From: Haloprofundus salilacus
GTDB taxonomy: Archaea > Halobacteriota > Halobacteria > Halobacteriales > Haloferacaceae
DNA length: 64,000 nt
NCBI RefSeq assembly: GCF_020150815.1
Contig: NZ_CP083723.1
Coordinates: 2,232,001-2,296,000, forward strand
Direction: 5' to 3'
Position numbers and translations under genes: made by a program
The notes under the pieces: generated by a model
Seen by the model: the letters and a program-made list of their open reading frames with translations, nothing else
Databases searched by the model: none
What the model was told of the DNA's origin: nothing
In this document: positions 46,228-62,757 of the stretch, in pieces
How the letters are laid out: each line of letters starts with the position of its first letter
Numbering within the stretch: the stretch's first letter is position 1

Positions 46228-46623
46228 GACGGTGACGACCGAAATAGACTGAGGAGGTGAAGGGGGCTGTAGGGCCGCTGAGCGCCCCGATAATGTCTCA
46301 TTTTCGACCAAATTGTCACGCGAAGCGACCGGATAACGGCTTCGACAACGGGGTAGCCACGAACAGCTCGATTCGTCAGTTACACCGGCTAACGGGGGGA
46401 CGATTCGACTACACTGCTGGTCGTTCCGCACAACGGAAGTTACCGTTCGACCATCTTCGAGGCTAATATTGTTCTCTTGAAGATGACACGGAAAACAGAC
46501 CGACTCTCGTGAAAGTTTCAACTAAAAATCAGGTATTTCGGGGAACTGCCGTAAAATGGCTCAATAGCTATGGACACCATAACAAGATAGTTGTCCTCTA
46601 TCCAACACTTGGGGGTTTCACAG
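46228..46623. other. 396-bp intergenic region, start of lower-GC surface-glycan locus
   Basis: No gene supported. Bases from about 46440 to 46600 drop sharply in GC (TAATATTGTTCTCTTGAAG, AACTAAAAATCAGG). It separates the protease region from the glycosyltransferase gene and probably holds the promoter of the latter. Confidence 0.5.
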
Positions 46624-47946
46624 ATGGATGGGAGTTATATCGAAGACAATCACTCAGAGACGGTTACAGTGTCTCCGCGCGGAGCGTACGCGCTCGGAGT
46701 GGTGATGGGAGAGAGCGAGGAGCGGCATCTTCTCCGTATTCTCGCCCATGCGGTACAGCAGGGTTGTCCACTGTTCTCGGTCCGACGTGACGGATCGATA
46801 CTGCACGCTATTGGGTCCGACGACGACCCGATAGAGGTTCATCTGCAGACGGGATCACCCGTTGCCGACGCGGAGACGGCACGAGAGACACTCGTCGAAC
46901 TCGCTCGGACGTACGGACTGCGCGGACTCGTCGTTCAGACGGACCCGACGATGCGAATCGACTTCGACGCAAGTTTCGACGCGCTCGAAGCAGGAGACGA
47001 GTTCGTCGTCGAAGCGCAGGCGGCGGAGGCCGAAACCCTCGAAGCGCCGGTCGTCGTCGGCATCCCGGCCTACAACGAGGAACACGCCGTCGGTTCGATC
47101 GTCGCCGAAGCGAGGGAGTACGCCGACATCGTCGTCGTCGTCGACGACGGAAGCGTCGACGAAACCGCAGAACGAGCCGCCGAGGCCGGTGCCGTCGTCG
47201 TCGAGCATCCGGAGAACCGCGGCTACGGCGCGGCGCTCCGGACGCTGTTCGAGGAGGGCAAGCGGCGGAACGCGTCGAGTCTCGTCGTGCTTGACGCGGA
47301 CGGCCAACACAGTCCGTGCGACATCAAGCGACTGCTCCGACAGCAGGAGGAGTGCGGTGCCGACATCGTCATCGGGAGTCGCTTCACCGGTACCGTCGAG
47401 AGCGACATCCCGCTGTACCGACGGTTCGGTATCTGGGTCATCAACGTCCTCACCAACGTCGGACTCGGAGGGTTTCGTAAAGAAAACCGTATCAGCGACA
47501 CGCAGAGCGGGTTCCGAGCGTACGGCGCGAAGGCGTTGCAGACGCTCGCCGACGACGAGACGCTCGGGTCGAACATGCGAGCGAGCACGGACATCCTGTT
47601 TCACGCCCGCGAGCAGGGCCACCGAATCGACGAGGTGGGCGTTCGCGTCCGATACGACCTCGAAGACACGTACACGGAGAACCCAATCTCACACGGCTAC
47701 TCGGTCGTTCGCGGGGTCCTTCCTCTCATCGAACGGGAGCGACCGCTGACCACCGTCGGCGTCCCCGGGTTCGTCAGCACGTTCGTCGGACTGAGTCTCG
47801 GCTTCTGGTCGGTGTTCGAGTACGGCCAGTCGGGTCAGTTCCCGATAGAGGTCGTCTTCGTCTCACTAGTGTTGCTCCTCGTCGGCTTCGTCGGCGGCGT
47901 CGTCGCCATCGTTCACCAGTCGCTGCGGGAGGCCGAGATTAGATGA
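46624..47946 (+). CDS. GT2 glycosyltransferase with unusual N-terminal domain
   Basis: A 440-residue protein. Residues 1-135 are a separate domain I do not recognise (SEERHLLRILAHAVQQGCPLFSV, ARTYGLRGLVVQTDPTMRIDF). Then the GT2 fold: VVVGIPAYNEEHAVGS (near 145), VVVVDDGSVDET, SSLVVLDADGQHSP (metal DxD) and SDTQSGFRAYGAKAL. Two transmembrane helices close the C-terminus. This is the dolichyl-phosphate mannose synthase-like class; it likely loads a lipid carrier with sugar for surface glycan synthesis. It overlaps the DUF1616 gene by four bases (ATGA). Confidence 0.9.
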   Translation: MDGSYIEDNHSETVTVSPRGAYALGVVMGESEERHLLRILAHAVQQGCPLFSVRRDGSILHAIGSDDDPIEVHLQTGSPVADAETARETLVELARTYGLRGLVVQTDPTMRIDFDASFDALEAGDEFVVEAQAAEAETLEAPVVVGIPAYNEEHAVGSIVAEAREYADIVVVVDDGSVDETAERAAEAGAVVVEHPENRGYGAALRTLFEEGKRRNASSLVVLDADGQHSPCDIKRLLRQQEECGADIVIGSRFTGTVESDIPLYRRFGIWVINVLTNVGLGGFRKENRISDTQSGFRAYGAKALQTLADDETLGSNMRASTDILFHAREQGHRIDEVGVRVRYDLEDTYTENPISHGYSVVRGVLPLIERERPLTTVGVPGFVSTFVGLSLGFWSVFEYGQSGQFPIEVVFVSLVLLLVGFVGGVVAIVHQSLREAEIR

Positions 47947-48542
47947 GCCGCGAAAACGCAGGAGACGCCGAAAAAAGGAGCGACTGGCGGTCGAGGGCGG
48001 GTCGTCTCCGAAGGCGGTTCGCCGTCGCCGTGAGGTCGATTTCGGCGACGAACGTCGTCATCGCCGCGGCGCTCGTGTTCTCGGTCGGGACGGTCGCTTA
48101 CAGCGTCGGCACGGACGCGCAGGGCGACCAGTACACCGAACTGTACGTCCTCAACGACAGCGCGGACGGTCAATCGATGGCCTCGACGTACCCGGACGAA
48201 CTCGTCGTCGGCGAACCGACTCGGCTGCTCGCCGGGGTCGAAAACCACGAAGGAACGACGCAACCGTACACACTCGTCGTCCAGCTCCAGCGGGTCGACG
48301 CCGGGTCCGATTCGGCGTCGGAACCCGTCGTGAGCGAGACACAGCTCGTCGGCCAGTTCGACCGGAGCGTCGATCCGGGCGAGCGGTGGCAGATTTCGCA
48401 CCGCGTCGTTCCGGACCAACGCGTCAGCGGTGAGAGAGTCAGGCTCACGTACCTCCTCTACCGCGGTGACGCGCCGCAACAGCCGACCGTCGAGAACGCA
48501 TACCGGGCGGCTCACATCTGGGTGAGTGTTTCCGATGACTGA
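47943..48542 (+). CDS. DUF1616 domain membrane protein
   Basis: A 199-residue protein. A basic N-terminus leads into one transmembrane helix (ISATNVVIAAALVFSVGTVAYSVG), then an outer beta domain with the DUF1616 pattern YTELYVLN, LVVGEPTRLLAGVENHEGTTQPYTLVVQLQRV, GERVRLTYLLYRG. DUF1616 is found next to glycosyltransferases and lipid-linked sugar enzymes in archaea. Its ATG overlaps the stop of the upstream glycosyltransferase, so they are probably partners. Confidence 0.88.
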   Translation: MSRENAGDAEKRSDWRSRAGRLRRRFAVAVRSISATNVVIAAALVFSVGTVAYSVGTDAQGDQYTELYVLNDSADGQSMASTYPDELVVGEPTRLLAGVENHEGTTQPYTLVVQLQRVDAGSDSASEPVVSETQLVGQFDRSVDPGERWQISHRVVPDQRVSGERVRLTYLLYRGDAPQQPTVENAYRAAHIWVSVSDD

Positions 48543-48727
48543 CGGCCGGCATCTCGACGACCTGCCGCCCCCACGGCGAACCAACCCACCGCGACAACGT
48601 CACCAGCGAGAGGGGTCGAACGCGCCCGAAACCCGGAAAGTCGGTGAAAGGTGTCAATCTCAACGATACGAACGCACGAGATGATAGTACGCTGATAAAA
48701 TTACAGAACTATATTATAGGTTTACTG

Positions 48728-49663
48728 ATGAACATACACGCTCACCCGACGAACATCCTCAGTTTCGATGTCGAGCACTGGCACTCCGCGACGCTCCTCG
48801 ACGGGACCGTCGACAGCCCGGTCGACCGCATCGAGACCTCGACCCAAATCGTCCTCGACGTACTCAGACGGTACGACGTCCGTGCAACCTTCTTCATCGT
48901 CGGCAAAGTCGCCGAACAGTATCCGGAGCTCGTCAGCCGAATCGCCGACGAGGGTCACGAAATCGCCTCGCACGGACACACACACACGCCGCTTTTCGAC
49001 CTATCGCCCGACACCTTCGAGCGCGAACTGACGATGTCGTCGGACGCGATACAAGAAGCCTGCGGGCACCGGCCGGTCGGGTTCCGTGCGCCGAACTTCT
49101 CGGTTACGCGGAAGACCGAGTGGGCGTTCGAAGTACTCGAATCGAGCGACTACCGCTACGATTCGAGCGTCTTCCCGATGCGGACGCCGATGTACGGTGT
49201 CTCCAACGCGCCGCTTCGACCGTATCACGTTCCGGGGAACGACCCGTTTCGATCCTATCACGTTCCGGGGAACGCGCCGTTTCGTCCGCCGCTATCGGCT
49301 ATGCCGGCGACCGACCTAGTGGAGTACCCGCTCGCCGTTACGGACACACCCGCCAGACTTCCCGTCGCCGGGGGTTTCTACGCGCGCCTACTGCCGATTC
49401 GTCTCATCGAATGGGGGATTCGCGGACTCAATCGACGCGGCATCCCGGCGACGATCTACTTCCACCCCTGGGAGTTCAACCCCGCCGTAAGGACGCCGGA
49501 ACCGTCGCTCCCGAAACGGTTCGTCAGCTTCCACGGCATCGAGGGCACGGCCGCAAAACTAGAGCGGTTGCTTCGGACGTTCGAGTTCGGAACGATACGC
49601 GACGAACTCGACGCTTCAGAGGGTAACGACCTGCAGACGACCGCGACCGAAGAGTACGCATGA
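48728..49663 (+). CDS. Polysaccharide deacetylase (DUF3473 / XrtA-associated type)
   Basis: A 311-residue protein from ATG 48728; the frame continues to 48644 through an AT-rich stretch that looks like a promoter (TATATTATAGG). NodB-homology motifs: ILSFDVEHWHS, VRATFFIVGKVAEQYPELV, HEIASHGHTHTPLFDLSP, GFRAPNFSVT, and C-terminal YFHPWEFN. This is the type found near exosortase (XrtA) loci. An 11-residue internal repeat (RPYHVPGND/RSYHVPGNA) sits near residue 180. It removes N- or O-acetyl groups from surface sugars. It overlaps the next gene by four bases. Confidence 0.92.
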   Translation: MNIHAHPTNILSFDVEHWHSATLLDGTVDSPVDRIETSTQIVLDVLRRYDVRATFFIVGKVAEQYPELVSRIADEGHEIASHGHTHTPLFDLSPDTFERELTMSSDAIQEACGHRPVGFRAPNFSVTRKTEWAFEVLESSDYRYDSSVFPMRTPMYGVSNAPLRPYHVPGNDPFRSYHVPGNAPFRPPLSAMPATDLVEYPLAVTDTPARLPVAGGFYARLLPIRLIEWGIRGLNRRGIPATIYFHPWEFNPAVRTPEPSLPKRFVSFHGIEGTAAKLERLLRTFEFGTIRDELDASEGNDLQTTATEEYA

Positions 49664-50739
49664 GCGACTCACGAACGACACGCACGGCGAACGAAGAACC
49701 GACTATCGAACGTTGCGCCGACTCGACGGCGTGGAATCGATTCGTCGAACGCGTCGACGGACCGCCGTTCGCGCTGTGGGCGTGGGGGGACGCCGCCGAG
49801 GCGTACGGCCACGACCGGTGGTATCTCGTCGCCCGCGAGGGCGGTGATATCGTCGCCGCCCTCCCACTCGTCCACATGTCGAGCAGGCTGTTCGGCTCGA
49901 AACTCGTCTCGCCGCCGTACGGCGAGCGCGGGTCGGTGCTGCTCAGCGACGACTCCGACGCCGCAACGGACCGCGCTGTCGACCGTCTGCTCGAACGGAC
50001 ACGGGCGCTCGCGAATGCGCTCGGCGTCGAGTTCGTCAGCCTTCGAGGGAGTCGCGTCAGCGGCCTCTCGGGGTTCGAGCACAGGAGGCGGTTTGTCACG
50101 TTCCAACTCCCGCTGGAGTCTCCGGAGACGATCTGGGACGGAATCAAGGACAGCCGACAGCGTCAGGTTGCACAGGCCGAAGACGCCGAACTCACCTACC
50201 GAGAAGGTAACTCGCTTTCGGACCTCGAAGCGTACTACCGGTTGTCGCTGCGGTCGATGCGCGGGCACGGAACGCCGCCGCACTCGTTCGCGTTTCACCG
50301 GACGCTCTGGGAGGAACTCGGTGAGGACAACGTCCACCTCGGGATGGTCGAACGGAACGGCGAGTTGATAAACGCGATTCTGGACTTCTCGCTCGGGTCG
50401 ACCGTCTATCAGTGGGGCGTCGTCAACGATTACGAGTACCGCGATCTGAACGGAGGGAGCCTCGCACTCTGGAAGTCGCTCGAATGGGCCAGCGAGGCGG
50501 GACACGAGACGTACGAGTTCGGTCGAACCCGCGAAGGGTCGGGCGTCTACCTGTTCAAGAAGAGCTTCGGGGGACAGAAGACGTGGTACGACGACTACCA
50601 CTACTTCCCGACCGGAACTGGCGAACTTCCGCACCCCGACGACGACACGTACGACCGGGCGAAGGAGCTCTGGCAGCGACTGCCGATTCCGGTGACGCAG
50701 TACGTCGGCCCGCGGATTCGGGGGAAGATAAGCCTGTGA
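49660..50739 (+). CDS. FemAB-like GNAT-fold transferase
   Basis: A 359-residue protein. The layout matches FemAB/XrtA-associated proteins: a first GNAT half (WLVAREGGDIVAALPLVHMSSRLFGSKLVSPPYGERGSVLL), a helix-rich middle and the second half with DGIKDSRQRQVAQAEDAELTYREG, FAFHRTLWEELG and GGSLALWKSLEWASEAGHETYEFGRTREGSGVYLFKKSFGG. FemAB-type enzymes transfer aminoacyl groups from tRNA to cell-wall-like substrates. It co-occurs with the DUF3473 deacetylase (ATGA overlap), as at XrtA polysaccharide loci in bacteria. Here it may aminoacylate a surface glycan. Confidence 0.88.
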   Translation: MSDSRTTRTANEEPTIERCADSTAWNRFVERVDGPPFALWAWGDAAEAYGHDRWYLVAREGGDIVAALPLVHMSSRLFGSKLVSPPYGERGSVLLSDDSDAATDRAVDRLLERTRALANALGVEFVSLRGSRVSGLSGFEHRRRFVTFQLPLESPETIWDGIKDSRQRQVAQAEDAELTYREGNSLSDLEAYYRLSLRSMRGHGTPPHSFAFHRTLWEELGEDNVHLGMVERNGELINAILDFSLGSTVYQWGVVNDYEYRDLNGGSLALWKSLEWASEAGHETYEFGRTREGSGVYLFKKSFGGQKTWYDDYHYFPTGTGELPHPDDDTYDRAKELWQRLPIPVTQYVGPRIRGKISL

Positions 50740-50783
50740 GCCGTAGAACCGCAGACGACCGACCGATAGAGAACCACTAACAG

Positions 50784-51677
50784 ATGGATTCACCAGAAGA
50801 GCGAATCTCGACAGCACGGGAAACGACACGAAACCACTCAGCGCCGACAGTACGTCGACAGGAGAGCGACGAACTCCCGGTCTCAGTGTGCATCACGACG
50901 AAGAACAACGCCGACACCATCGGCCGATGTCTCGAGAGTGTCAGCGAATGGACCGACGAGATCGTCGTCGTGGACACCGAGAGTACCGACGGGACGGTTG
51001 AAATATGCGAATCGTACGGTGCCATGGTGTATCAGCACGAGTTCGAGGGATTCGCGCAGATAAAGACCACGGCGATAAACCACGCCGAGAACGACTGGGT
51101 GTTCGTCTTGGACGCCGACGAGGAGATTCCGAATGCACTGCGCGAAGAGATCTTCCGCGAGTTCGGTGCTCCTGGCATCGTCGCGTTCAGAATGCGGAAA
51201 CGCGAGCACATGCTCGGAGCGAGAACGCATCAGTACCACTTCAGACGGCCGTACCTCGCCCGTAAAGATGTCCTCTACTACCAGCAGGACTTCATCTGGG
51301 AGCGTCTCTCGGTCAAAGACGAGTTCGAGGGGCGAACGCGAGACCTCTCGAACAGCATCGAACACTATCGGTTCGAGCGCACTTCGGAGATGGAGCGAAA
51401 GATTCAGCAGTACAGCGCTTTAGAGGCGATTCAAATCGTCGAATCGGATAAACGCGACGGGGCGCTCGCACTGCTCGGCCGAGGGCTCGCGGTCGCGGCG
51501 AGCAGACTTGTCGTCGACAAGGCAGTACTCGACGGTTACCGGGGGGTGTTCATCGCGTTCATGGAGTTTTATCAACTCGCCGTCGCGTATCCGAAAATTC
51601 GAGATATCTACCGGCTCCAAGAGGAACATCCGGAGAACTGGCGCGAGATATGGCTCGAAGAGGAGTGCCAACGATAG
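50784..51677 (+). CDS. GT2 glycosyltransferase (WaaE-like)
   Basis: A 297-residue protein with ATG 50784. GT2 motifs: VSVCITTKNNADTIGRCLESV near residue 35, IVVVDTESTDGTVEICESY, WVFVLDADEEIPNALREEI (DxD) and HTLGA-like acceptor section KREHMLGARTHQYHFRRPYLARKDVLYY. It resembles LPS core biosynthesis (WaaE/KdtX) transferases that add glucose or heptose. No membrane anchor is evident, so it acts at the cytoplasmic face. The next gene begins 31 bp after its stop. Confidence 0.9.
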   Translation: MDSPEERISTARETTRNHSAPTVRRQESDELPVSVCITTKNNADTIGRCLESVSEWTDEIVVVDTESTDGTVEICESYGAMVYQHEFEGFAQIKTTAINHAENDWVFVLDADEEIPNALREEIFREFGAPGIVAFRMRKREHMLGARTHQYHFRRPYLARKDVLYYQQDFIWERLSVKDEFEGRTRDLSNSIEHYRFERTSEMERKIQQYSALEAIQIVESDKRDGALALLGRGLAVAASRLVVDKAVLDGYRGVFIAFMEFYQLAVAYPKIRDIYRLQEEHPENWREIWLEEECQR

Positions 51678-51708
51678 CGATGAGAGCACGCGACCACGGG
51701 GAACGACC

Positions 51709-52521
51709 GTGACCGAACGGCATCGATCACGACGCGAGTTTCTGCGAATCGGTGCGGTCAGCGTCGGCGGAGTGGGGGCGGGGTGTCTCGACCGAACGCG
51801 CACCGACTCTGTCACCGAACCCGGTTCGGTCGAGCAGATGCGCCCTGTCGACATCTCCGAGATGGAACTCGTGTTCGAAGATCGGTTTCGGAAGAACGCG
51901 ATAGACCGCTCGAAGTGGCAAACGAAGTATCCGTGGGATGGAGATGCGCGAACTCACAACCACGACGCCTACGCGGCGGAGGACAACGCATTCGTTTCCG
52001 ACAGGAGGTTGGTGCTCAAAGCAGAGAACCAACCACGGATGGGAAAGCCGTACACCACCGGCGTCGTCTCGGCGAAGAAGGTGTTCAAACCGGGGTATTT
52101 CGAGGGCGTCATGAAACTTCCCCCGGTCGAACCGGGGTTCTGGCCCGCGTTCTGGCTGACCTCCGCTTCGTACTGGCCGCCGGAGATTGACATCTTCGAG
52201 GTGTTCGGTAGGGACCCGAAACTCTACATGACGTACCACTTCATGGGCGACGACGAGGAGCCGGATAGAGTGAGAAAGACGTTCAGCGGTCCCGATTTTA
52301 GCGCCGAATACCACACGTTCGCCGTCGACTGGTCAAGGGAGCGAATCGTGTGGTACGTCGATGGGGTCGAACGGTTCCGCTACGCCGGTGAGTACGTGAG
52401 CGACGAGTACATGTGGCTCATCCTCAACTTCGGCGTTGGCGCGAACTTCTTGGCGCAGCCACGACCAGAGACGTTCCCGGCGACGTACGAAATCGAGCGT
52501 GTGCAGGCGTGGGAGCGGTAG
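51709..52521 (+). CDS. Glycoside hydrolase family 16, lipoprotein
   Basis: A 270-residue protein from GTG 51709. The signal RHRSRREFLRIGAVSVGGVGAGC combines a Tat RR motif with a lipobox (Cys near residue 24), so the mature enzyme is likely lipid-anchored outside the cell. The GH16 catalytic loop PPEIDIFEVFG holds the ExDxxE acid/base and nucleophile (Glu-Ile-Asp-Ile-Phe-Glu). The rest (GYFEGVMKLPPVEPGFWPAFWLTS) is a jelly roll. GH16 enzymes cleave beta-1,3/1,4-glucans, carrageenan, agarose or related glycans; substrate is not predictable. Confidence 0.9.
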   Translation: MTERHRSRREFLRIGAVSVGGVGAGCLDRTRTDSVTEPGSVEQMRPVDISEMELVFEDRFRKNAIDRSKWQTKYPWDGDARTHNHDAYAAEDNAFVSDRRLVLKAENQPRMGKPYTTGVVSAKKVFKPGYFEGVMKLPPVEPGFWPAFWLTSASYWPPEIDIFEVFGRDPKLYMTYHFMGDDEEPDRVRKTFSGPDFSAEYHTFAVDWSRERIVWYVDGVERFRYAGEYVSDEYMWLILNFGVGANFLAQPRPETFPATYEIERVQAWER

Positions 52522-52591: not shown

Positions 52592-54340
52592 TCAGTCGGT
52601 GTAGTCGACCACGTCGCCGTTGACCGTGGTCGTCACGTCGCCGCCGAACGTCGACACGTCGATGATTTCGCCGTCGATAATCCAGTAGGCGTCGGTTCCG
52701 CCCACGACTTTCCCGAATATCGTACTGCCGTCGAGGCTGTCGTCTCCGTTGATCGATGCACCGGAGACGTCAGCCTTCAACACCGAGGCTGTGGTCTCGA
52801 CGATGTATCTCACCATTCCGTCGCTGTCCGCCGCGCGGTCGATGCGGAGGAGATTCACCCGCTGGCCGTTGACGAAGACATCCGCCTGGCCGTCGAGCGA
52901 GAGCGACGTGAGCTCTCCCTCGAAGGCGTACTCGTCGCGGCCGCCGGCGACGCCGCCAGTTGCGGTCGTCCCCGAGATCGAGTCTTCCTCGTCGAGTCCG
53001 TTGGCGCTCTCGATAGCACCAGAGACTGTCAGCGAGTAGGACGCTGACCCGCTGTAGCTACTGCCGTCGATGGCGAGCGTGTTCGGGAGTGAACTCCCAG
53101 AGCTGTCGTCTGAATCCGACGAACCGCCGAGCGTGTCGGGGTCGACGGGCTGATCGTCGATGAATGCTTCGAGCGCGCCGCTGTAGGTGAAGGCGGTGAT
53201 TTCGCCGTCGTACCAGAAACCGGGTAAGGAACTCGTCTTCGAGACGGTCCCGCTGGCGCTGCTTCCGTCGCTCGCGACCTGATAATCGGCCGTGTTTCCG
53301 CTGTCGTCGAGACGAATGTTGCTCGCCTCGAACTCGAAACTCGCCTCGCTGCCGTCGGCCGAGCGCAGCCAGAGGTAGTGTTCGCCTTCGGTCGTTCCGT
53401 CGTCAGTATCATCGTCATCGCCATCACCGGTACCGGAGTCACCGCCGGAGCCGCGCTCCCAGACGCGAACCCAGTCGACGAGCATCTCTTCGTCCCACGA
53501 GACGGACTTGTCGGTCTCACCGATGCGGTCGATGTGGAGACTCAACATCATGTACTGTGGGCCGCCGTTCGACATGGCGGTGAGCGCGTTGTCGTCGGTG
53601 AAGTCCGACACTTGCACGCCGTCGACGTAGTGACGGATGAAGCCGTCGCCCCACCAGCAACCGTAGATGTGGTAGTTCTCGGTGACGTCGTCGCCGGGTT
53701 CGTACCGTTCCTGCGAGTGAGTGTGCGTCGAGGAGTCGCCGGGTTCGGTCGACGTTGACCAGTGGAGCGTGTGCCGCGAGAGGTGGGTGTCGTCCCACCC
53801 GCTTCCGTCCTGCATCACTTCGACGAAGTCGATTTCGGGCGGCCACGCTTCCGTGTCCGGTTTCGACCAGAACGCCGGGAGGAACCCTTCGCGCTTGGGC
53901 ATCTTGATCTTCGCTTCCCAGTAGTGACCGGAACCGTACGCGGCGATGCCGCGGGTGTTCACCGCACCGGTCTGGATGTTGCTCCCGTCGTCGTGACTGG
54001 CAGAGAGACTGAGCTGATTGTTCTGAACGTTGACGTGCGAGGAGGTCACCGTCGCGGGGGAGTTGTTCTCGGTCGTCCCCCATCCGAAGCCGAGGTCCCA
54101 CTTCGAGGAGTCGAGCGACCCCGCGTCGAAGTAATCTTCGAAGACGATAGACCAGTTCTCGGGGTCCTGCGGGCCTCCCTCGTCGACTGCTGCCGCTGCC
54201 GTCGTCGAACCGAGGCCGAACCCGCCGAGCGCCACCGCGCCTGCGCCGGTCATCTTCAGGTAGTCACGCCGGGCCATCCCTGAGTTTACCTCTTTTTTTC
54301 TATGCTTTTCTTCTCTACTTTCTGAGTGTTCACGTGCCAT
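52592..54340 (-). CDS. Secreted GH16 hydrolase with three C-terminal beta repeats
   Basis: A 582-residue protein. Residues 1-21 are a charged extension, then a Tat signal ARRDYLKMTGAGAVALGG. The GH16 domain spans about residues 60-290 with catalytic PPEIDFVEVM. An acidic Gly/Asp/Thr linker follows. The C-terminal part has three repeats of about 80 residues: HYLWLRSADGS to AFIDD, NTLAIDGSSYS to VFVNGQ and NLLRIDRAADS to TTVNGD. Each shows a strand-rich design with xGSIxGxxxGGxDxYxxxGEI-like cores, probably glycan-binding modules. Possible start at ATG 54277. Confidence 0.9.
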   Translation of the reverse strand: MAREHSESREEKHRKKEVNSGMARRDYLKMTGAGAVALGGFGLGSTTAAAAVDEGGPQDPENWSIVFEDYFDAGSLDSSKWDLGFGWGTTENNSPATVTSSHVNVQNNQLSLSASHDDGSNIQTGAVNTRGIAAYGSGHYWEAKIKMPKREGFLPAFWSKPDTEAWPPEIDFVEVMQDGSGWDDTHLSRHTLHWSTSTEPGDSSTHTHSQERYEPGDDVTENYHIYGCWWGDGFIRHYVDGVQVSDFTDDNALTAMSNGGPQYMMLSLHIDRIGETDKSVSWDEEMLVDWVRVWERGSGGDSGTGDGDDDDTDDGTTEGEHYLWLRSADGSEASFEFEASNIRLDDSGNTADYQVASDGSSASGTVSKTSSLPGFWYDGEITAFTYSGALEAFIDDQPVDPDTLGGSSDSDDSSGSSLPNTLAIDGSSYSGSASYSLTVSGAIESANGLDEEDSISGTTATGGVAGGRDEYAFEGELTSLSLDGQADVFVNGQRVNLLRIDRAADSDGMVRYIVETTASVLKADVSGASINGDDSLDGSTIFGKVVGGTDAYWIIDGEIIDVSTFGGDVTTTVNGDVVDYTD

Positions 54341-54810: not shown

Positions 54811-55368
54811 ATGTGGCCTTGGGGACACCTCGCTTTCGGCTATCTGTTATACACTACCTGGATACACCTAGTCCACCGCCGCTCGCCGACCGGTCTCGAA
54901 GCGCTCGCACTCGCGTTCGGCACACAGTTTCCGGACCTCGTCGACAAGCCGCTGGCGTGGACGTTCGGGGTTCTACCGAGCGGGCGGTCGCTCACTCACT
55001 CGCTCCTCGTTGCTGTCATCGTCATCGCCGGTGTCTTCGTGCTCCTCCGACGACGTGGCGTGGACGAGTACGCGGTAGCGTTCGGTATCGGGTACTTCTC
55101 TCATCTCGTCGGAGATTCGCTCAAACATCTACTCAGCGGTGAGTTCGAGATGCTCGCGTTTCTGCTCTATCCGATCACCTACACCGACTACGGCGTCGAA
55201 CAGGGATTTCTCTATCACCTCTCGGAACTTCGGTTGACGCAGTTTCTCGGCCCCGAGACGCTCGTCATCCTTCTCGTCGTCGCTATCTGGGTTCGGGACG
55301 GAACACCGGGTCCCGGAGCGCTCGTGCAGCTACTTGGGTGGACGTACCGTCGTCTCACCCGAACCTGA
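54811..55368 (+). CDS. Membrane-bound metal-dependent hydrolase (DUF457/YdjM-like)
   Basis: A 185-residue membrane protein with ATG 54811. Features of the YdjM/LexA-regulated inner-membrane hydrolases: N-terminal MWPWGHLAFGYLLYT, GTQFPDLVDKPLAWTFGVLPSGRSLTHSLL (metal-binding Asp, His), and GIGYFSHLVGDSLKHLLSG (second metal-ligand group). About four to five transmembrane helices. The family is assumed to hydrolyse a membrane-linked substrate, but none is established. Confidence 0.88.
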   Translation: MWPWGHLAFGYLLYTTWIHLVHRRSPTGLEALALAFGTQFPDLVDKPLAWTFGVLPSGRSLTHSLLVAVIVIAGVFVLLRRRGVDEYAVAFGIGYFSHLVGDSLKHLLSGEFEMLAFLLYPITYTDYGVEQGFLYHLSELRLTQFLGPETLVILLVVAIWVRDGTPGPGALVQLLGWTYRRLTRT

Positions 55369-55431
55369 GAAGACGTAACTCGGAGCGAGGAGGATACGAG
55401 CCGCGAACTCACGTTACCGGTATCGGCCGTA

Positions 55432-56241
55432 TTAGTCTCCTGTCGGAGTTCGGGCTGCGACGATGGTCGGCTCTTTGTCGGTTCTCGACACTGCCAGCGT
55501 CTCGGTCGTAAATCCAAATGATTCGAGCAGCGTCTGCAGCACGTCTCTGTTATGGTGCGCCTCCGCGTAGACAAGCCGGCAACGCTCCGACGAGAGTGAT
55601 TCTCGAAGCCCCTTGAGTACGTTGACGCCAGACCCTTGAACGTCCATTTTCACGACGGTCGGCGCAGGAATCTCGTTCTCCCGAACGAGTCTGTCGCCTG
55701 CGACCGTCTCGACGGGAAACGAAGTGAGTGGCTCGCCACTCGGATACACGGTGTCGAGAGAGCCGTGCTGCGCACCGGGAGACTCCGTGTCGTAGACGTA
55801 GAACTCCGTCTCTCGGCTCTCCGCGGCGAGTGGTCGAGTTTCGACTTCGGCGACGATATCGTTCGCCGCGAGGTTTACGCGCAATCGTTCGACGTTCGGC
55901 GGATAGGGCTCGAACGGGACGACTGTCCCGGTTCGTAGCTGATTGCCGACGAGACAGCTATAGATACCGATGGTCGCTCCGATGTCGTAGAACACGTCGT
56001 CTTCACGGATGTTTTTCAGGACGCGTTCTAACACCGCCTCTTCGTCCCAGATGCGGTTCTGAAGGCTGTTCCACTCGACGAACGTGGATGGTCGGAAGAC
56101 GGCCGAGGCGCCTCGGGTTCGGAGGGTGTACGTCGGGTCGGTGCGGAGGTACAGACCGACTGCCGACGTGTACGCTCGGCTTCCGTATTCGTATGCGGGC
56201 GTCCCCCAGAGGAGATCGCCGAGGGTGCCGATGAGCGCCAT
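55432..56241 (-). CDS. FkbM family methyltransferase
   Basis: A 269-residue protein with ATG 56241. SAM-binding motif DDVFYDIGATIGIYSCLVG (near 82), followed by VVPFEPYPPNVERLRVNLAANDI and APTVVKMDVQGSGVNVLKGL. FkbM enzymes O-methylate sugars or other small molecules. In a glycan locus it likely caps or decorates sugars. Two transcription units diverge from this region: the methyltransferase and the ATP-grasp ligase. Confidence 0.9.
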   Translation of the reverse strand: MALIGTLGDLLWGTPAYEYGSRAYTSAVGLYLRTDPTYTLRTRGASAVFRPSTFVEWNSLQNRIWDEEAVLERVLKNIREDDVFYDIGATIGIYSCLVGNQLRTGTVVPFEPYPPNVERLRVNLAANDIVAEVETRPLAAESRETEFYVYDTESPGAQHGSLDTVYPSGEPLTSFPVETVAGDRLVRENEIPAPTVVKMDVQGSGVNVLKGLRESLSSERCRLVYAEAHHNRDVLQTLLESFGFTTETLAVSRTDKEPTIVAARTPTGD

Positions 56242-56438
56242 ACGCTCGAACTACCTCGGACAGACCCATAACTTGTTTGACAATAAAACGAAGGCAAATG
56301 GATACGAGAAATTCATTTTTGATGTCCGGAGAGAGATTCTGAGAACGTATCTTGAGGCATTAGGGTTCAGAGAGAGAAGACAGTACGATCTCTGGCACAA
56401 TACCTTGATATCTTGTCAGGTTGTGGTGTCCGTAGCTC
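56242..56438. other. 197-bp AT-rich promoter region between divergent genes
   Basis: No gene. Rich in A/T with no coding bias. It separates the FkbM gene (minus strand) from the ATP-grasp gene (plus strand). The TTGATATCTTG at 56406-56416 is a possible promoter element for the latter. Confidence 0.4.
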
Positions 56439-57779
56439 ATGACGTCTTCGAGATTCAGGAACGAAGAGGGGAGAGACAGTCGATCGATAGTCATCCCCGC
56501 TAACCAGTCAGTGCACGCTGTGGGCTGCGTTCGCTCGCTCGGCCCCCGTGGCGTCCGTACGATCGTCGTCTCCGACGACAGGACGGTTCCGGCAGCATAC
56601 TCACGATACTGTGACGAAGCAATCGCCGTCCCGTCCCCGCACGATGACCTCCTGGCATACGCTCGGGCCCTGCTGACACTAGCAAAGCGGCCGGACGTGG
56701 CGACGATCGTGCCAACTCGCGAAGAGGACACGTACGTTCTCTCGAAGTATCGCTCGGAGTTCGAACCGCACGTCACTGGCCTGTGGCCGCCGTACGAGTC
56801 ACTGGCGATAGCCCAAGACGGCTACCGCTTGGCGAAGGCCGCCGAAGAGGTCGACATACCGGTTCCGAAGACGGAATTGCTGGACGATGTCGACGACTGG
56901 AATCGAGAACTCATCGTCAAGCAGCGGTACGCGATACTGACCTCCGACTACACCGACTCGCTCGCCGAACACGAGTGCGAAGGTGGCGGACAGGAGCCCA
57001 TCTATCTCGAAACGAGCGTCGAACCGGACAAGGTGGCGATCACCGAGGCGTTTCTCGGCGAGACGCCGATCGTTCAGGAGTGTACGTGGGGAACCGAGTA
57101 CTCTTACAGAGCGTTGTTCGACCACGGCGAACCGGTTGCGACGAGTCTCCGAAAACAGATTCGAGGCAAGACGTACGCCGGAGGTGCGAGCGTCTACCGG
57201 GAGATGACACACGACGAAACGGTCGAAGGGCACGGGAGACGGTTGCTCGAACATCTCGACTGGCACGGTCTTGCCACGGTACAGTTCATGAAAGACCGAG
57301 AGACAGGCGAGTTCAAACTCCTCGAGATCAACCCCCGTATCTGGGGGTCAATCCTCCTCGACGTTCGAGCGGGAGCGGACTACCCGTACAACTACTGGCT
57401 GCTCGCAACCGGACAGAGAGACCGTATCGACCCGACGTACGAGGTCGGCGTCGCGAGCCACCTGCTGTTCGGGGAACTCAAATATCTTTCGAGCGTCCTA
57501 CGAGACGATTTCCCGAACGTCGAACGCCCGACGTTTGCGGAGGCGCTCCGAGAGGTGGGCAGTTCGTTGTACCACCAGCCGAATTTCGATTATCTGAATC
57601 TCAGAGACCCGCGACCGTTCGCGCACGGCGTACTCAACACGCTCAGCATCGAGGAGACCGTGAGACGGCTACGGGGGGCCGACGCCGACGAGGAGCTCCC
57701 GGAGACGCAGTCACTCACTGACGACAGCCTCCCGGTGGAGACGACGGACCAACGGATGACGTCGAACAGGAGCAACTAA
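56439..57779 (+). CDS. ATP-grasp domain ligase
   Basis: A 446-residue protein with ATG 56439. The pre-ATP Rossmann half starts RSIVIPANQSVHAVGCVRSLGPRGVRTIVVSDD; the ATP-grasp half includes ELIVKQRYAILTS, ETPIVQECTWGTEYSYRALFDHG and the metal motif FKLLEINPRIWGSILLDVR near residue 300. The C-terminal 60 residues are charged and less conserved-looking. It is similar in layout to the ligase at 17579. It may ligate an amine or amino acid to a carboxyl group on a sugar or lipid. The flippase gene starts 3 bp after its stop. Confidence 0.88.
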   Translation: MTSSRFRNEEGRDSRSIVIPANQSVHAVGCVRSLGPRGVRTIVVSDDRTVPAAYSRYCDEAIAVPSPHDDLLAYARALLTLAKRPDVATIVPTREEDTYVLSKYRSEFEPHVTGLWPPYESLAIAQDGYRLAKAAEEVDIPVPKTELLDDVDDWNRELIVKQRYAILTSDYTDSLAEHECEGGGQEPIYLETSVEPDKVAITEAFLGETPIVQECTWGTEYSYRALFDHGEPVATSLRKQIRGKTYAGGASVYREMTHDETVEGHGRRLLEHLDWHGLATVQFMKDRETGEFKLLEINPRIWGSILLDVRAGADYPYNYWLLATGQRDRIDPTYEVGVASHLLFGELKYLSSVLRDDFPNVERPTFAEALREVGSSLYHQPNFDYLNLRDPRPFAHGVLNTLSIEETVRRLRGADADEELPETQSLTDDSLPVETTDQRMTSNRSN

Positions 57780-57782
57780 TCC

Positions 57783-59213
57783 GTGGACCTCGGTCGTTCG
57801 AGTTTCAGTCTCTTCCTCTCGAAGACGGGGATGGGAATCCTCATGTTCGGAGGGATCCTCTACTTCGCTCGGACGCTCGACGCCACACAGATGGGGATCT
57901 TCTTCCTGTTTTTCGCGGTTCAGGGACTGTTGTCCATCCCTGCGGACCTCGGTCTCAGGAGCGCACTCGAAAAACGATTGAGCGAGGGCGGAGACCTTGA
58001 CGAGATACTCGGGTCTGCACTTGCGTTGAAACTCGGGTTACTTGCGGTCGTCGGAACGGTGATTTTTCTCGCGCAGGGGCCAATCAACCGCTACTTCGGC
58101 GCAAATTTGGCGATGTTTCTCATCATCACAGTGATCCTTCGGGAACTCTCGCTGTTCTACATCCACGCCGTTCGCGGTGAACTGCGCGTCGGCGAGACTG
58201 CACCGATCGAGTTCACGCGACGACTCACGTGGGTGGGAATCGGTGCGTACCTCGTCAGCACTGGATACGGTGTCGAAGGTATCGTCATGGCGCTCATCTG
58301 TAGCTCGCTTGTCTCGCTCATGTGGGCGTACACTAAGTGCAACGTCGGTATCGGGCGACCAAGCCGTGGACACATTGAATCATTGTTCGCGTTCTCGAAA
58401 TACGACACGGTGAACTCTATCGGTGGACACGTCTACCAGTGGATGGACACGGCGATCATCGGATTCTTCCTCGCGTCGTCTTTCGTCAGCGCGTACGAGA
58501 TCGCGTGGCAGGTGACGCTCCTCGTGTTGATGTTGAGCAACTCCATCTCGCTGACGCTCTTTCCGCAGATCAGCCAGTGGAACGCGAGCGCCTCGACGAA
58601 CCAGATCGAGTCGACCATCTCGACGGCCATCGGGTTCGCCACCTTCATTTCGATTCCCGCAATCGTCGGATCGGCCATCTATGCGACCGAGATACTCCGA
58701 TACACGTTCGGCCCCGAATACACCATCGCGGCGACGGTACTCGTCGTCCTCATGGTGGAGAAACTGTTCCAGTCGTTCAACGACATTATCGGTATCTCGG
58801 TCCGTGCAATCGATCGGCCGGACCTCGCCGCCCGAGCGACGGTTGTCTCCATCGGTATCAATCTCGTACTCAGCCCGGTGCTTCTGCTGAGCATCGGATT
58901 GGTCGGTGCCGCACTCGCGACGCTGCTCTCGTGGTTGGTCAACACGCTGCTTCACCTGCGTTACCTGAAGCAACACGTTACGGTCCAGATCCCGTTCAGA
59001 CTCGTCGGATGGTACGCGCTCTCGTCCGTACTGATGGGCATCACGCTGGCGGCCGTGAAATCTGCAGTTCCGGTCGACGGGATACTGATTCTCCTCGTAC
59101 AGATTGCGCTTGGTGCCGCGCTGTACGTCGGGTTCTCGACGGTCATCCCGGAGGTCAGAAACCGGATAATTATCCCGAGCGTCCGGATGTTCGATCTCCC
59201 GGTCGGACGATGA
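57783..59213 (+). CDS. Oligosaccharide flippase (Wzx-like, MOP superfamily)
   Basis: A 476-residue protein from GTG 57783 with about 12-14 transmembrane helices. MOP/Wzx features: SFSLFLSKTGMGILMFGGILYFARTL, SALEKRLSEGG and GNYGVEGIVMAL-like helices; the C-terminal polysaccharide-synthesis helices IPFRLVGWYALSSVLMGI and AALYVGFSTVIPEV are evident. It would flip a lipid-linked oligosaccharide across the membrane. It is 3 bp from the ATP-grasp gene, so the two are co-transcribed. Confidence 0.92.
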   Translation: MDLGRSSFSLFLSKTGMGILMFGGILYFARTLDATQMGIFFLFFAVQGLLSIPADLGLRSALEKRLSEGGDLDEILGSALALKLGLLAVVGTVIFLAQGPINRYFGANLAMFLIITVILRELSLFYIHAVRGELRVGETAPIEFTRRLTWVGIGAYLVSTGYGVEGIVMALICSSLVSLMWAYTKCNVGIGRPSRGHIESLFAFSKYDTVNSIGGHVYQWMDTAIIGFFLASSFVSAYEIAWQVTLLVLMLSNSISLTLFPQISQWNASASTNQIESTISTAIGFATFISIPAIVGSAIYATEILRYTFGPEYTIAATVLVVLMVEKLFQSFNDIIGISVRAIDRPDLAARATVVSIGINLVLSPVLLLSIGLVGAALATLLSWLVNTLLHLRYLKQHVTVQIPFRLVGWYALSSVLMGITLAAVKSAVPVDGILILLVQIALGAALYVGFSTVIPEVRNRIIIPSVRMFDLPVGR

Positions 59214-59415
59214 GTCCACGTTCGCCCCTTTGAGACCGCCTCTCGGTCGAACGAACGCCGAACTACATCTCCAAAAAGATAGTCAAATTGACAGGGAGTA
59301 ACATCTCAACTGAACAAGATATATCTCACTCTCTCTGGTAGGCACAATCGCGTAATTTACCGTACCCGTCTGTCAGGCGAAGTATCCTGAGCTGAGGGTA
59401 GAACAGATACGATTC

Positions 59416-61644
59416 ATGACGCTAAATGTCACGCAAACTGAGAGGATGGTCGGATGGGGACCGACCGTAGTTGGTACAGTCGTCGTTGCAGTTCTCGCCG
59501 TGTTCTGGGTGGCACTGCAGTGGCCAACAAGCGGTTTCGTCGTCGCGAGCGTGCGAATCGTCACGGGCCTCGCGCTCCTCCTGATCGTCCCGGGGGCGTT
59601 GACCGCTCACCTCTGTCAGAGACGAGCGAGTACGTCCGGAACGTTCGCGCTCGTCTCTGTCGCGGTGAGTCTCGCAGTTCTAGGGGTTCTGACGCCCGCG
59701 GCGGCCGTCGTCCTTCCGCTTTTGGGCATCGACGCACCGTTGTCTCCGTTCCCGCTCGCCGTCCTCCTCACGCTCGTAATCGGTGTACTCACGGGGTTAG
59801 TGTACCACACAGACACGGTGTTTTCGATGAGGCGTATCGACCTCCAAGCGCCCGTACCGGTGCTGTTTACCATCTTCGCACTCCCCGGACTCGCGGCCGT
59901 CTCCGCGACGGCGATGAATCGGTTCGATACCAACGTCGGGATGTTCGTCTTCGTCGGCGTCGTTTCGCTCCTGGTCATCGCCACAGCACTGCGAGTAATT
60001 CCGTCCAACATCTATCCGGTACTGGTGTTCGCAATCGCCTTCTCGACGCTCTTGCACCGCAATCTACTCACGAACCACGTCGTCGGTGCAGACATTCAAG
60101 GAGTGTACTTCGCCGCTGAACTCGTCGGCAGGACCCACCAGTGGTCGCCCGAGATGGGTGGCGTTTCGCTGGCTCTTCCGGTCGTCACGACCGTTCCGTC
60201 GACGATTTCTCTGCTCACGGGACTAGAGCTCACGACAACGTTCAAAGTCGTCTACGCGTTCTTGTTCGCCCTCGTCCCAGTGGGCGTGTTCTATCTGTCG
60301 AGAGAGATATTCGACGAGGATATCGGATTCTTCGGTGCGATGTTTTTCGTGTTCTATCACGGTTCGTTCTACTTCACGCCTGGAAAACAACTGATCTCGG
60401 AGTTGTTCGTCGTCACCCTGCTGTGGCTGTTCGTCCACCACGGGTTCGACACGCTCTCACGAAAAGCGGTGGCGGCATTGCTCGCTACCGGCCTCATCTT
60501 CTCCCACTACGGCATGAGCTACGTCTTGGGACTCTCACTGCTCGTCGCGTGGGTCGCTCTCACCGTGTTGCGGGGTGTCCAACCGCGAGCGACTCACCGC
60601 CTCTCGGTGACGTATCCGCTCTTTCTGCTCGGAGGAGCGACGGCGTGGTACAGCTACGCTTCCGACGAACTCACGGCCACGTTAGCGTCTATTCCGGCGT
60701 CTCTGGCGTCGCAAGTATCACTAGTGCTCACGTCGGGGACGGTCTCGCAGTCGGGAACCAGTTACGTCTCCCAGCAATCGGCGCTCCTCGAGAGTCTGCA
60801 GCTCTATTTGTACATCCTGTTCACCGTTCTGTTGACGATCGGTATCGGGTGGTGCGTAATTATCCACCTCCGAACTGCGCTCCGGGGGAACAAACCGCAG
60901 TACATCGAGTATACGGCGATTGCGGTGCCCGTTTTCGTCTTCCTCGCGTCCTCGTACTTCTTGACGATCAATCTCTGGGCAGATCGGGCGTATCAACTGG
61001 CGCTCGTCGTCCTCGCACCGTTCACGGCGTTCGGATTCTTCGTCGTATTTCGCACGGTCTTCCGACTCGCGAAACGGTGGTCTCTCCGCCCCGCGAACAG
61101 TTCTGTACGAGGAACGCAGTGGGTGATATTGGCGGTACTCCTCGTCTCGCTGCTCGCGTTCAACGCTGGTGCGGTCTTCTCACTCGCCGGCGAGTCACAC
61201 ACCTCGACGTTCAATCCGAACGCCCACGACCTGGCGTTTAGCCAGCAGGAACGAGCCGGAGTTCAGTGGATAGAGAGTAACGGCCCTGTAGACGGCGGAA
61301 CCGAGTACCTGCCCACTCCGGACGGCGCGCCGGGCCAAACGCCCATCTACACGGACTCCGTGACGAACCAACTGTTTCGGTCGGAACTCCCCTCAAACTA
61401 CTATAACACTGATACCGTACTTCTGAAGAGCGATCAGCAACCGACTCTCGATCCGAACCAGATCGACGACGGCTACGTCTTCATTCGAGAACGGAGTGTT
61501 GATGCGGAAAGCCCCCCAAACGAGGTGCAGGTTTCGGAACTCACTCCGAGAGAGCGGCGTCTCCTCACGAGCTCGGATAACGTCGTCTACAGCAACGGTG
61601 CAGTAACTGTCGTCCGATCGGAACGCCGCGACACCTCGTCGTAA
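59416..61644 (+). CDS. Large polytopic membrane protein (DUF2206-like)
   Basis: A 742-residue protein with at least 13-15 hydrophobic helices over residues 1-600 and a C-terminal extracellular domain (SFNPNAHDLAFSQQERAGVQWIESNGPVDGGTEY, TDTVLLKSDQQPTL). The sequence is consistent with haloarchaeal DUF2206-type proteins and the GT-C-like polytopic transferases, which might use lipid-linked donors. I cannot assign the activity. Loop H-x-x-D features such as NLLTNHVVGADIQGVY may be functional. ATG at 59416. Confidence 0.75.
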   Translation: MTLNVTQTERMVGWGPTVVGTVVVAVLAVFWVALQWPTSGFVVASVRIVTGLALLLIVPGALTAHLCQRRASTSGTFALVSVAVSLAVLGVLTPAAAVVLPLLGIDAPLSPFPLAVLLTLVIGVLTGLVYHTDTVFSMRRIDLQAPVPVLFTIFALPGLAAVSATAMNRFDTNVGMFVFVGVVSLLVIATALRVIPSNIYPVLVFAIAFSTLLHRNLLTNHVVGADIQGVYFAAELVGRTHQWSPEMGGVSLALPVVTTVPSTISLLTGLELTTTFKVVYAFLFALVPVGVFYLSREIFDEDIGFFGAMFFVFYHGSFYFTPGKQLISELFVVTLLWLFVHHGFDTLSRKAVAALLATGLIFSHYGMSYVLGLSLLVAWVALTVLRGVQPRATHRLSVTYPLFLLGGATAWYSYASDELTATLASIPASLASQVSLVLTSGTVSQSGTSYVSQQSALLESLQLYLYILFTVLLTIGIGWCVIIHLRTALRGNKPQYIEYTAIAVPVFVFLASSYFLTINLWADRAYQLALVVLAPFTAFGFFVVFRTVFRLAKRWSLRPANSSVRGTQWVILAVLLVSLLAFNAGAVFSLAGESHTSTFNPNAHDLAFSQQERAGVQWIESNGPVDGGTEYLPTPDGAPGQTPIYTDSVTNQLFRSELPSNYYNTDTVLLKSDQQPTLDPNQIDDGYVFIRERSVDAESPPNEVQVSELTPRERRLLTSSDNVVYSNGAVTVVRSERRDTSS

Positions 61645-61764
61645 CCCGAGAGGTCCGCTCCGGAGGCGCGTAAGTCGGACATCGACAGTCTCCAGAGTCC
61701 GAGAAATCGTCAGTCAGCGAACACTCATGGTTCTCGGTGCTGTTCTCTTCGACGGTGTCAGAAT

Positions 61765-62757
61765 GTGTTCGGCAGAGATAAGAAGCCGCTCGTCTCCTAC
61801 GTTATCGTCACGTACAATCGGGCAGACGACCTCGAGAGCGCAGTCGAGTCGGTGCTCGCCCAAAAGTATCGGCCGCTCGAACTCGTCGTCGTCAGCAACT
61901 CGACCGACGTCGTCCCCGAACAGGAGCTGTTCGGCGACGGGGGGCGATTCGACGAACAGAACATCCACTATCACCACATTCCGGAGCGGATGGGCGTCCC
62001 GGGAGCGAGAAACGCGGGGTTCGACTATGCGGACGGCGACATCGTGATCACGCTCGACGACGACGCGATTATCGCCGACGCCGCCGCGACAGATGTCGCC
62101 GTCTCGTTGTTCGACGAGCACGACGACGTGGGTGCAATCGCGTTCCAGTGCCGCAACTACCACACACGGGCGGTGAAGTCGAACGAGACTCCGAATCCTC
62201 CCCGCTTCGACCTCACGCCGTTGAGCCAGTACCGCGCGACGAACTTCGTCGGCGTCGGCAACGCCATCCGACGCTCGGTGCTGGAGACTGTCGGTGGGTA
62301 TCCCGAGGACTTCGTGTACGGGTTCGAGGAGATGGATCTCTCGCTTCGTATCCACGACACCGGGTACGACATCCTCTACACGCCATCCGTCGTCGTCTAC
62401 CACAAGAAATCGCCCGCAGCGAGGATATCGGATACGGAAACCCAAGAGCGGATGGTCGAGAACCGAATGAAGGTCGCGATTCGAAATCTCCCCGGACGGT
62501 ACGTCGTCTGTTCGTTCCTCATCTGGTCGGTGTACGCCGTCTGGTTGACGGGACAGATTTCGTCGCTGTGGAACATCTACCGCCGACTGTACGAACGACG
62601 TACCGACTTACGAGACCATCGCCGCGTCGTCAGTTCCCAGACTATCGCTCGAATCAAATCACGGAACACGATGCTCTTTGCGTGGTGGTACGGGCCGCAT
62701 CCGATGCGGATCTTCGGACCCAACGGCGAACTCGAACGTCTCACGTGGGAGCGATAG
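61765..62757 (+). CDS. GT2 glycosyltransferase
   Basis: A 330-residue protein from GTG 61765. GT2 motifs: LVSYVIVTYNRADDLESAVESVLAQ at residue 10, VVVSNSTDVV, VPGARNAGFDYADGDIVITLDDDAI (DDD metal site) and GVGNAIRRSVLETVGGYPEDFVYGFEEMDLSLRI. One C-terminal hydrophobic helix (SFLIWSVYAVWLTGQI) suggests membrane association. It probably adds a sugar in the assembly of the same glycan. Confidence 0.92.
   Translation: MFGRDKKPLVSYVIVTYNRADDLESAVESVLAQKYRPLELVVVSNSTDVVPEQELFGDGGRFDEQNIHYHHIPERMGVPGARNAGFDYADGDIVITLDDDAIIADAAATDVAVSLFDEHDDVGAIAFQCRNYHTRAVKSNETPNPPRFDLTPLSQYRATNFVGVGNAIRRSVLETVGGYPEDFVYGFEEMDLSLRIHDTGYDILYTPSVVVYHKKSPAARISDTETQERMVENRMKVAIRNLPGRYVVCSFLIWSVYAVWLTGQISSLWNIYRRLYERRTDLRDHRRVVSSQTIARIKSRNTMLFAWWYGPHPMRIFGPNGELERLTWER

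Follow-up and report, generated by a model that had tools for sequence, protein, structure and literature searches.

Unnamed haloarchaeal modules on a secreted GH16 protein as candidate anchors to the cell's own exopolysaccharide

Introduction

What do three small C-terminal modules contribute to a secreted GH16 protein encoded within an exopolysaccharide (EPS) locus of a haloarchaeon? The question arises from a 64,000-nucleotide stretch of the Haloprofundus salilacus genome (contig NZ_CP083723.1, positions 2,232,001 to 2,296,000), referred to here as the window. Our preferred reading, to which we assign a probability of roughly one half, is that the modules are unnamed haloarchaeal accessory domains acting in the manner of carbohydrate-binding modules (CBMs), and that through them an exported GH16 endo-glycanase stays attached to the EPS of its own cell, where it would trim or remodel the newly exported polymer. 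Glycan binding, EPS as the ligand and trimming are what we infer, while the locus, the architecture, the family, the subtype conservation and the fold confidence were obtained in silico.

A secreted GH16 protein with three related modules

A sequence-only reading of the window had described a secreted GH16 protein in which an acidic linker is followed by three modules, related to one another and some 80 residues long, and on this architecture the sequence, Pfam and a single HMM agree (Table 1). The stretch that it had singled out, 52592-53420 on the minus strand, corresponds to approximately residues 308-582 of the 582-residue ORF, and all of the end patterns that it quoted were found, in the order AFIDD, VFVNGQ and TTVNGD. 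M2 and M3 adjoin without a linker, and in the two stretches used RVNLLR serves both as the end of M2 and as the beginning of M3. Membership in GH16 is clear, with PF00722 scoring 60.7 bits against a cut-off of 22. Residues E169, D171 and E174 of the EIDFVE motif, which we take to be the active-site (catalytic) motif of GH16, are unchanged across eight aligned proteins, and the E-x-D-x-x-E pattern is present in 12/12 module-type and 13/13 second GH16 proteins. No lipobox was found in the N-terminal sequence of the 582-residue protein.

Table 1. Features of the EPS locus and of the module-bearing GH16 protein, in window coordinates
Feature	Position	Strand	Basis or remark
EPS locus, left part: GT2, DUF1616-like, polysaccharide deacetylase, GNAT/FemAB-type, GT2	46591-51677	+	Four proteins scanned; DUF1616-like name taken from annotated relative
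Second GH16 protein, lipobox-like GAGC, no module found	51574-52521	+	Start codon uncertain
582-aa secreted GH16 protein P0001 with three C-terminal modules	52592-54340	-	ORF and Pfam
N-terminal region, Tat-type signal MARRDYLKMTGAGAVALGGFGLGSTTAAAA (RRDYLKM)	54185-54340	-	Sequence; signal end estimated
GH16 catalytic domain, aa 93-290	53471-54064	-	Pfam PF00722, E 1.6e-16
EIDFVE motif (E169, D171, E174)	53819-53836	-	Alignment of 8 proteins
Acidic Gly/Ser/Asp linker	53390-53449	-	Sequence
Module M1, aa 318-406, ends AFIDD; aromatic/W/R subtype	53123-53389	-	
Module M2, aa 416-503, ends VFVNGQ; modelled stretch	52844-53089	-	
Module M3, about aa 494-582, ends TTVNGD	52595-52861	-	
EPS locus, right part: metal-dependent-hydrolase-like, FkbM methyltransferase (-), ATP-grasp	54811-62757 (whole right part)	.	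Hydrolase-like name taken from annotated relative
EPS locus, right part, continued: Wzx-type flippase, DUF2206, GT2	within 54811-62757	.	

The GH16 gene lies in a recurrent EPS locus

Seven GH16-with-module relatives (L040-L046), from Haloprofundus, Haloferax and Halobaculum (genera partly inferred), all have their genes in an EPS locus of the type seen around the window protein, and four further loci (L105-L108) bring this to 11 of the 11 related loci read. Across these 11 loci, GT2 occurs in 11, FemAB in 10, and Wzx and polysaccharide deacetylase in nine each; a second GH16 gene is likewise present in 11/11. The annotation of a Halobaculum marinum plasmid record shows the same EPS-locus picture. 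The best solved match of the GH16 domain is the endo-1,3-beta-glucanase 4crq (E 2.5e-13), and the best solved GH16 matches overall are endo-1,3-beta-glucanases and laminarinases, as would suit an enzyme that degrades foreign beta-glucans for food, its modules binding the foreign substrate. Such a role is very improbable, however, given the EPS-type genes in every one of the 11 related loci and the EPS character of all ten neighbouring proteins scanned within the window, none of which belongs to uptake or catabolism.

GH16 proteins are present in 43 of 391 genomes of the class, and among 31 GH16 loci examined with 1.5 kb on each side, the module was found in 11 (10 genomes) and in none of the other 20. 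Within the 11 EPS loci, the GH16 enzyme carries modules in 10. The exception, L108 (9840-11720, plus strand, genome G408), is a natural swap in which a different C-terminal region replaces the modules. Other arrangements were also seen. In the window, the two GH16 genes adjoin, the plus-strand one encoding a likely lipoprotein without modules and the minus-strand one a protein with modules and no lipobox, and the second GH16 protein of L043 itself bears one M1-like module. A Haloprofundus relative (L045, 9256-12183, minus strand) has approximately 300 residues with calcineurin-type phosphoesterase-like motifs between GH16 and the modules, although Pfam reports GH16 only for this protein. A GH16-module gene is also present in Haloferax mucosum, an EPS producer according to the title of a work referenced in PMC9943897.

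An unnamed and widespread haloarchaeal module family

The three modules are related to one another, as local BLOSUM62 scores of 63, 54 and 78 for the M1-M2, M1-M3 and M2-M3 pairs were reached by 0 of 1000 shuffles each (z 5.5, 4.4 and 7.6), and a single converged HMM grown from M2 detects M1, M2 and M3 with i-E values of 1e-18, 4e-26 and 9e-17. In the loci read, the family comprises 200 distinct modules in 63 proteins, at 1 to 6 per protein, with L060-L062 not counted a second time, since they duplicate L044, L041 and L040.

The sequence-only reading had recognised no named carbohydrate-binding family in these modules, and a profile match to a known domain, which would have overturned it, did not appear. 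No Pfam or NCBIfam model exceeded its cut-off for M1-M3, and 29 modules compared with both libraries gave no convincing match. CBM families were absent from the 29 modules in Pfam except for one AMPK1_CBM match at E 0.16, while the same library detected CBM_6 in another carrier at E 2.8e-13. The Ig-like filler families TIG and Big_7 stayed below cut-off, with single members at E 0.0098 and 0.071 and none for M2, and DUF1202 matched one of the 29 modules (E 0.00035), the whole carrier (L057) scoring 16.7 bits, short of the cut-off of 27. A PDB profile search with the module returned nothing under E 0.45, and the module is not named in the open-licence PMC literature searched. An explanation by a known domain was thus ruled out for Pfam, NCBIfam and PDB sequences, and in the libraries searched the modules are an unnamed haloarchaeal family.

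A profile search for the module in other haloarchaea, which the earlier reading had proposed, shows it to be widespread. With M2 alone as the query, 86 of the family's 148 genomes gave a match, and a profile of the 29-row alignment found it in at least 208 of 292 genomes and at least 65 of 77 genera of the class. Sampling the phylum gave 36 matching genomes out of 294, all 36 from the window's own order; two plasmid scans gave 10 and 30 matching records, again all haloarchaeal, as were all matches listed. Bacteria were covered through plasmids, genome-contig scans and phages. As genome-contig queries, a single stretch found no relative and an alignment (A3) found four loci.

We also considered a viral origin of the module, and rejected it: viral contigs, scanned three times with alignments A3, A5 and A6, held no relative, a one-module query of phage records gave no match, and no fold in BFVD came below E 0.25.

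Flippase genes are enriched near module carriers

A Tat-type motif is present in 41 of 47 carriers, and the Pfam domains found in these 47 proteins are beta-helix (11), GH16 (3), pectate-lyase-like (2), GH26 (1), CBM6 (1) and VWA (1). Some carriers, among them a subtilase and the VWA protein, are not glycan enzymes. The subtilase (L063, 8774-11035, plus strand; Peptidase_S8 E 3.4e-52) has three modules and, after them, a dockerin-like stretch, for which Dockerin_1 falls just under its cut-off at E 1.4e-4.

To place the non-GH16 carriers in context, regions of 16.3-19.5 kb around them, picked from high-scoring matches of different genera, were set against matched control regions half a contig away, one of which itself holds a module; the profiles used to detect Wzx and other families were built from matches in all of these regions. 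A Wzx homolog was found in 16 of 36 carrier regions as compared to 0 of 36 controls (Fisher p 3.6e-6), and was not detected in the other 20 carrier regions. Wzx or GT2 was found in 19 carrier and 2 control regions, while FemAB (5 versus 0) and GT2 alone (8 versus 2) were not significant at 0.05, and deacetylase, ATP-grasp, hexapeptide and DUF1616 showed no significant excess between the two sets of 36. Among near neighbours of carriers, the Pfam flippase Polysacc_synt accounted for 11 of 132 proteins (of 140, leaving out four carriers and four proteins from L139), and it was not among the 25 of 187 families listed for 142 control proteins (of 143, leaving out one 14-residue stub). The association with flippases may follow the beta-helix partner rather than the module. 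On plasmid pHME505 of Haloferax mediterranei ATCC 33500, a carrier adjoins a flippase-type gene annotated "lipopolysaccharide biosynthesis protein", and a beta-helix carrier on pHsi540 of Haloarcula sinaiiensis lies near a gene with the same annotation. A carrier of Haloferax mediterranei is E6P09_RS16790 (WP_004060911.1).

M2 is predicted to form an ordinary beta domain

An AlphaFold2 model of M2, made with 16 aligned modules, has nine strands with a mean pLDDT of 95.0 and a pTM of 0.84, and that of the three-module region has a pLDDT of 86.2 and a pTM of 0.60. Like a CBM, the module is contiguous, is predicted to fold independently and stands beside GH16 in one ORF. The top neighbours of the M2 model, which we take to be CBM2 entries, were 6qfs in Foldseek (E 0.027, TM 0.32) and 2cwr in VIA (Z 5.7 over 66 residues at 3.1 A), both weak, with Z under 8 and values below the level that separates relatives from a common arrangement. 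Fold neighbours include family-2 chitin- and xylan-binding CBM domains, all of them weak. For the three-module model, the best rows were a chitin-binding domain and integrin domains with Z of 5.0 and below, in a comparison that tested mainly M2 and M3 and barely the fold of M1.

The module resembles CBM family 2, whose members are beta-sandwiches that bind chitin, xylan and cellulose, in being a small beta-domain appended to a glycan-active enzyme. CBM2 entries were its top weak structural neighbours in both comparisons, but it has no Pfam sequence match to them and a Z under 8. CBM2 uses surface tryptophans, and M2 lacks them. A DUF4425 domain (3u6g) and the CLIPPER adhesin domain (9ifr) tied with CBM2 at Z 5.2 and 5.1, although neither showed a sequence relation to the module in the PDB profile search. 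The predicted M2 fold therefore fits a CBM-like beta-domain without proving kinship. The suggestion of the sequence-only reading that the modules may define a haloarchaeal glycan-binding fold fared less well, as the predicted beta domain looks ordinary and its CBM2-like neighbours are weak; with Z values of 5 to 6 common and ties that include unrelated families, we make no claim to a new fold.

M1, M2 and M3 are not equivalent

The M2 of the window protein is 51-55% identical to the M2 of Haloprofundus marisrubri and of two Haloferax species (L060-L062), as compared to 20% and 30% to M1 and M3 of its own protein, and because of this difference the three-module cassette probably diversified before Haloprofundus and Haloferax split. 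In 12 M1 modules, which come from nine related proteins and are not independent, every copy has W at HMM position 4, R at position 6, and either Y or F at positions 2 and 69. Position 52 of M1 holds W or Y in 10 copies and R in the other two. An aromatic residue (W/Y/F) therefore occupies positions 2, 4, 52 and 69 in 12/12, 12/12, 10/12 and 12/12 M1 modules, as compared to 2/130, 0/152, 23/165 and 51/160 modules outside GH16 proteins. His at position 1, also invariant in M1, is common elsewhere (69 of 97 modules outside GH16 proteins). The conserved positions of M1 alternate with hydrophobic positions of buried type and so probably face outward; from this strand alternation, rather than from coordinates, the aromatics and R of M1 are probably exposed.

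M3 has W52 in 9/9 modules, beside a one-residue insertion that makes the direction of this Trp uncertain, while M2 has W52 in 0/9. At positions 2, 4 and 52 the aromatics of M1 are missing from M2 and from all four modules that the GH16 proteins L105 and L106 carry, and the M1 aromatic set is absent from most family members.

This absence is one argument for the main and serious rival of our preferred reading, namely that the modules are Ig-like fillers that form a salt-stable stalk or stabilise the enzyme and bind no ligand themselves. Carriers as diverse as protease and VWA proteins, and a copy number that varies from 1 to 6, are also in keeping with a structural spacer. Nonetheless, M1, M2 and M3 have kept separate identities between Haloprofundus and Haloferax, M1 retains specific aromatic, W and R positions that a plain spacer would not need, and the link to polysaccharide loci is strong, and on balance we consider a purely structural role unlikely.

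A further alternative is that the modules bind the S-layer or another surface protein and so tether proteins that have no lipid anchor. The module-type GH16 proteins do lack a lipobox (0/12, including the module-less L108), as compared to 7 of 13 second GH16 proteins that have one, and modules occur on proteins of unrelated function. Polysaccharide export genes are often neighbours, however, and the M1 aromatics suit a glycan equally well or better, if not exclusively, which makes an envelope anchor of this type improbable.

A model for retention on the cell's own polysaccharide

That the modules may hold the enzyme on its own exopolysaccharide was also the suggestion of the sequence-only reading, which our analysis supports in part, namely for the unnamed family, its spread among haloarchaea and the setting in an EPS locus. 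In the retention reading that we prefer, the polymer would be built inside the cell and flipped by Wzx, and the Tat-exported GH16 enzyme would meet the new polymer outside. M1, and perhaps M3, would bind it, and the GH16 domain would then cut or remodel the newly exported chains. Judged from the conserved residues, M1 with its aromatics, W and R is the likeliest ligand site and M3 with its conserved W a possible second one, while M2 may be mainly a spacer.

Two known systems are the nearest working parallels. The first is ExoK/ExsH, a pair of bacterial glycanases. According to PMC4916376, these enzymes shorten succinoglycan, and no low-molecular-weight succinoglycan was detected without them. 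Two glycanases per EPS system recall the two adjoining GH16 genes here; the haloarchaeal GH16 protein also matches the NCBIfam ExoK model weakly (E 6e-07), but its 29.2 bits lie far below the cut-off of 350. The second is the AlgE mannuronan C5-epimerases, which also carry several C-terminal modules after a catalytic domain in an EPS pathway of the producing cell; in many module carriers here that domain is a beta-helix. AlgE R-modules are calcium-binding RTX beta-rolls, whereas the haloarchaeal module is predicted as another fold. According to PMC12269086, R-modules act as carbohydrate-binding modules beside the catalytic A-modules.

Extending this likeness, a broader reading that we put forward only tentatively is that the modules form a class-wide, taxon-restricted haloarchaeal CBM superfamily. 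It would fix a whole range of EPS-modifying secreted proteins, from GH16 glycanases and beta-helix lyases or epimerases to some proteases, onto the matrix that their own cell has made. Such a superfamily would parallel, in archaea, the way alginate epimerases combine A-modules with R-modules, but would have arisen from another fold. Because the module occurs in the majority of the haloarchaeal genomes sampled and is linked to loci for polysaccharide export, it can serve as a marker with which to search for the EPS-modifying secretome of haloarchaea, and the question of how carrier proteins stay on the cell becomes testable with single domains.

Further observations on module carriers

Approximately 28 kb past the end of the window, the same genome (C1:2323643-2326212, corresponding to L138 9644-12213) encodes two adjacent proteins with Tat-type signals, each with two modules near the N-terminus and differing in the C-terminal part. 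A Halocatena marina plasmid protein annotated H-type lectin domain-containing (L184, 4851-6950) has a module-like match, and its lectin domain would bind glycans itself. Module proteins are also carried by Haloprofundus plasmids of approximately 50 kb (NZ_CP083670.1, NZ_CP083665.1 and NZ_MN918444.1, together with L109), with module ORFs of 886 and 809 residues on the first two, and since such small plasmids bear them, carriers may move on plasmids. Near carriers (L109-L144), DUF7344 occurs in 10 of 132 proteins as compared to 4 of 142 controls, and TFIIB-type factors occur in 6 of 132 and are not among the 25 families listed for the controls; these frequencies make a dedicated regulator near the carriers possible.
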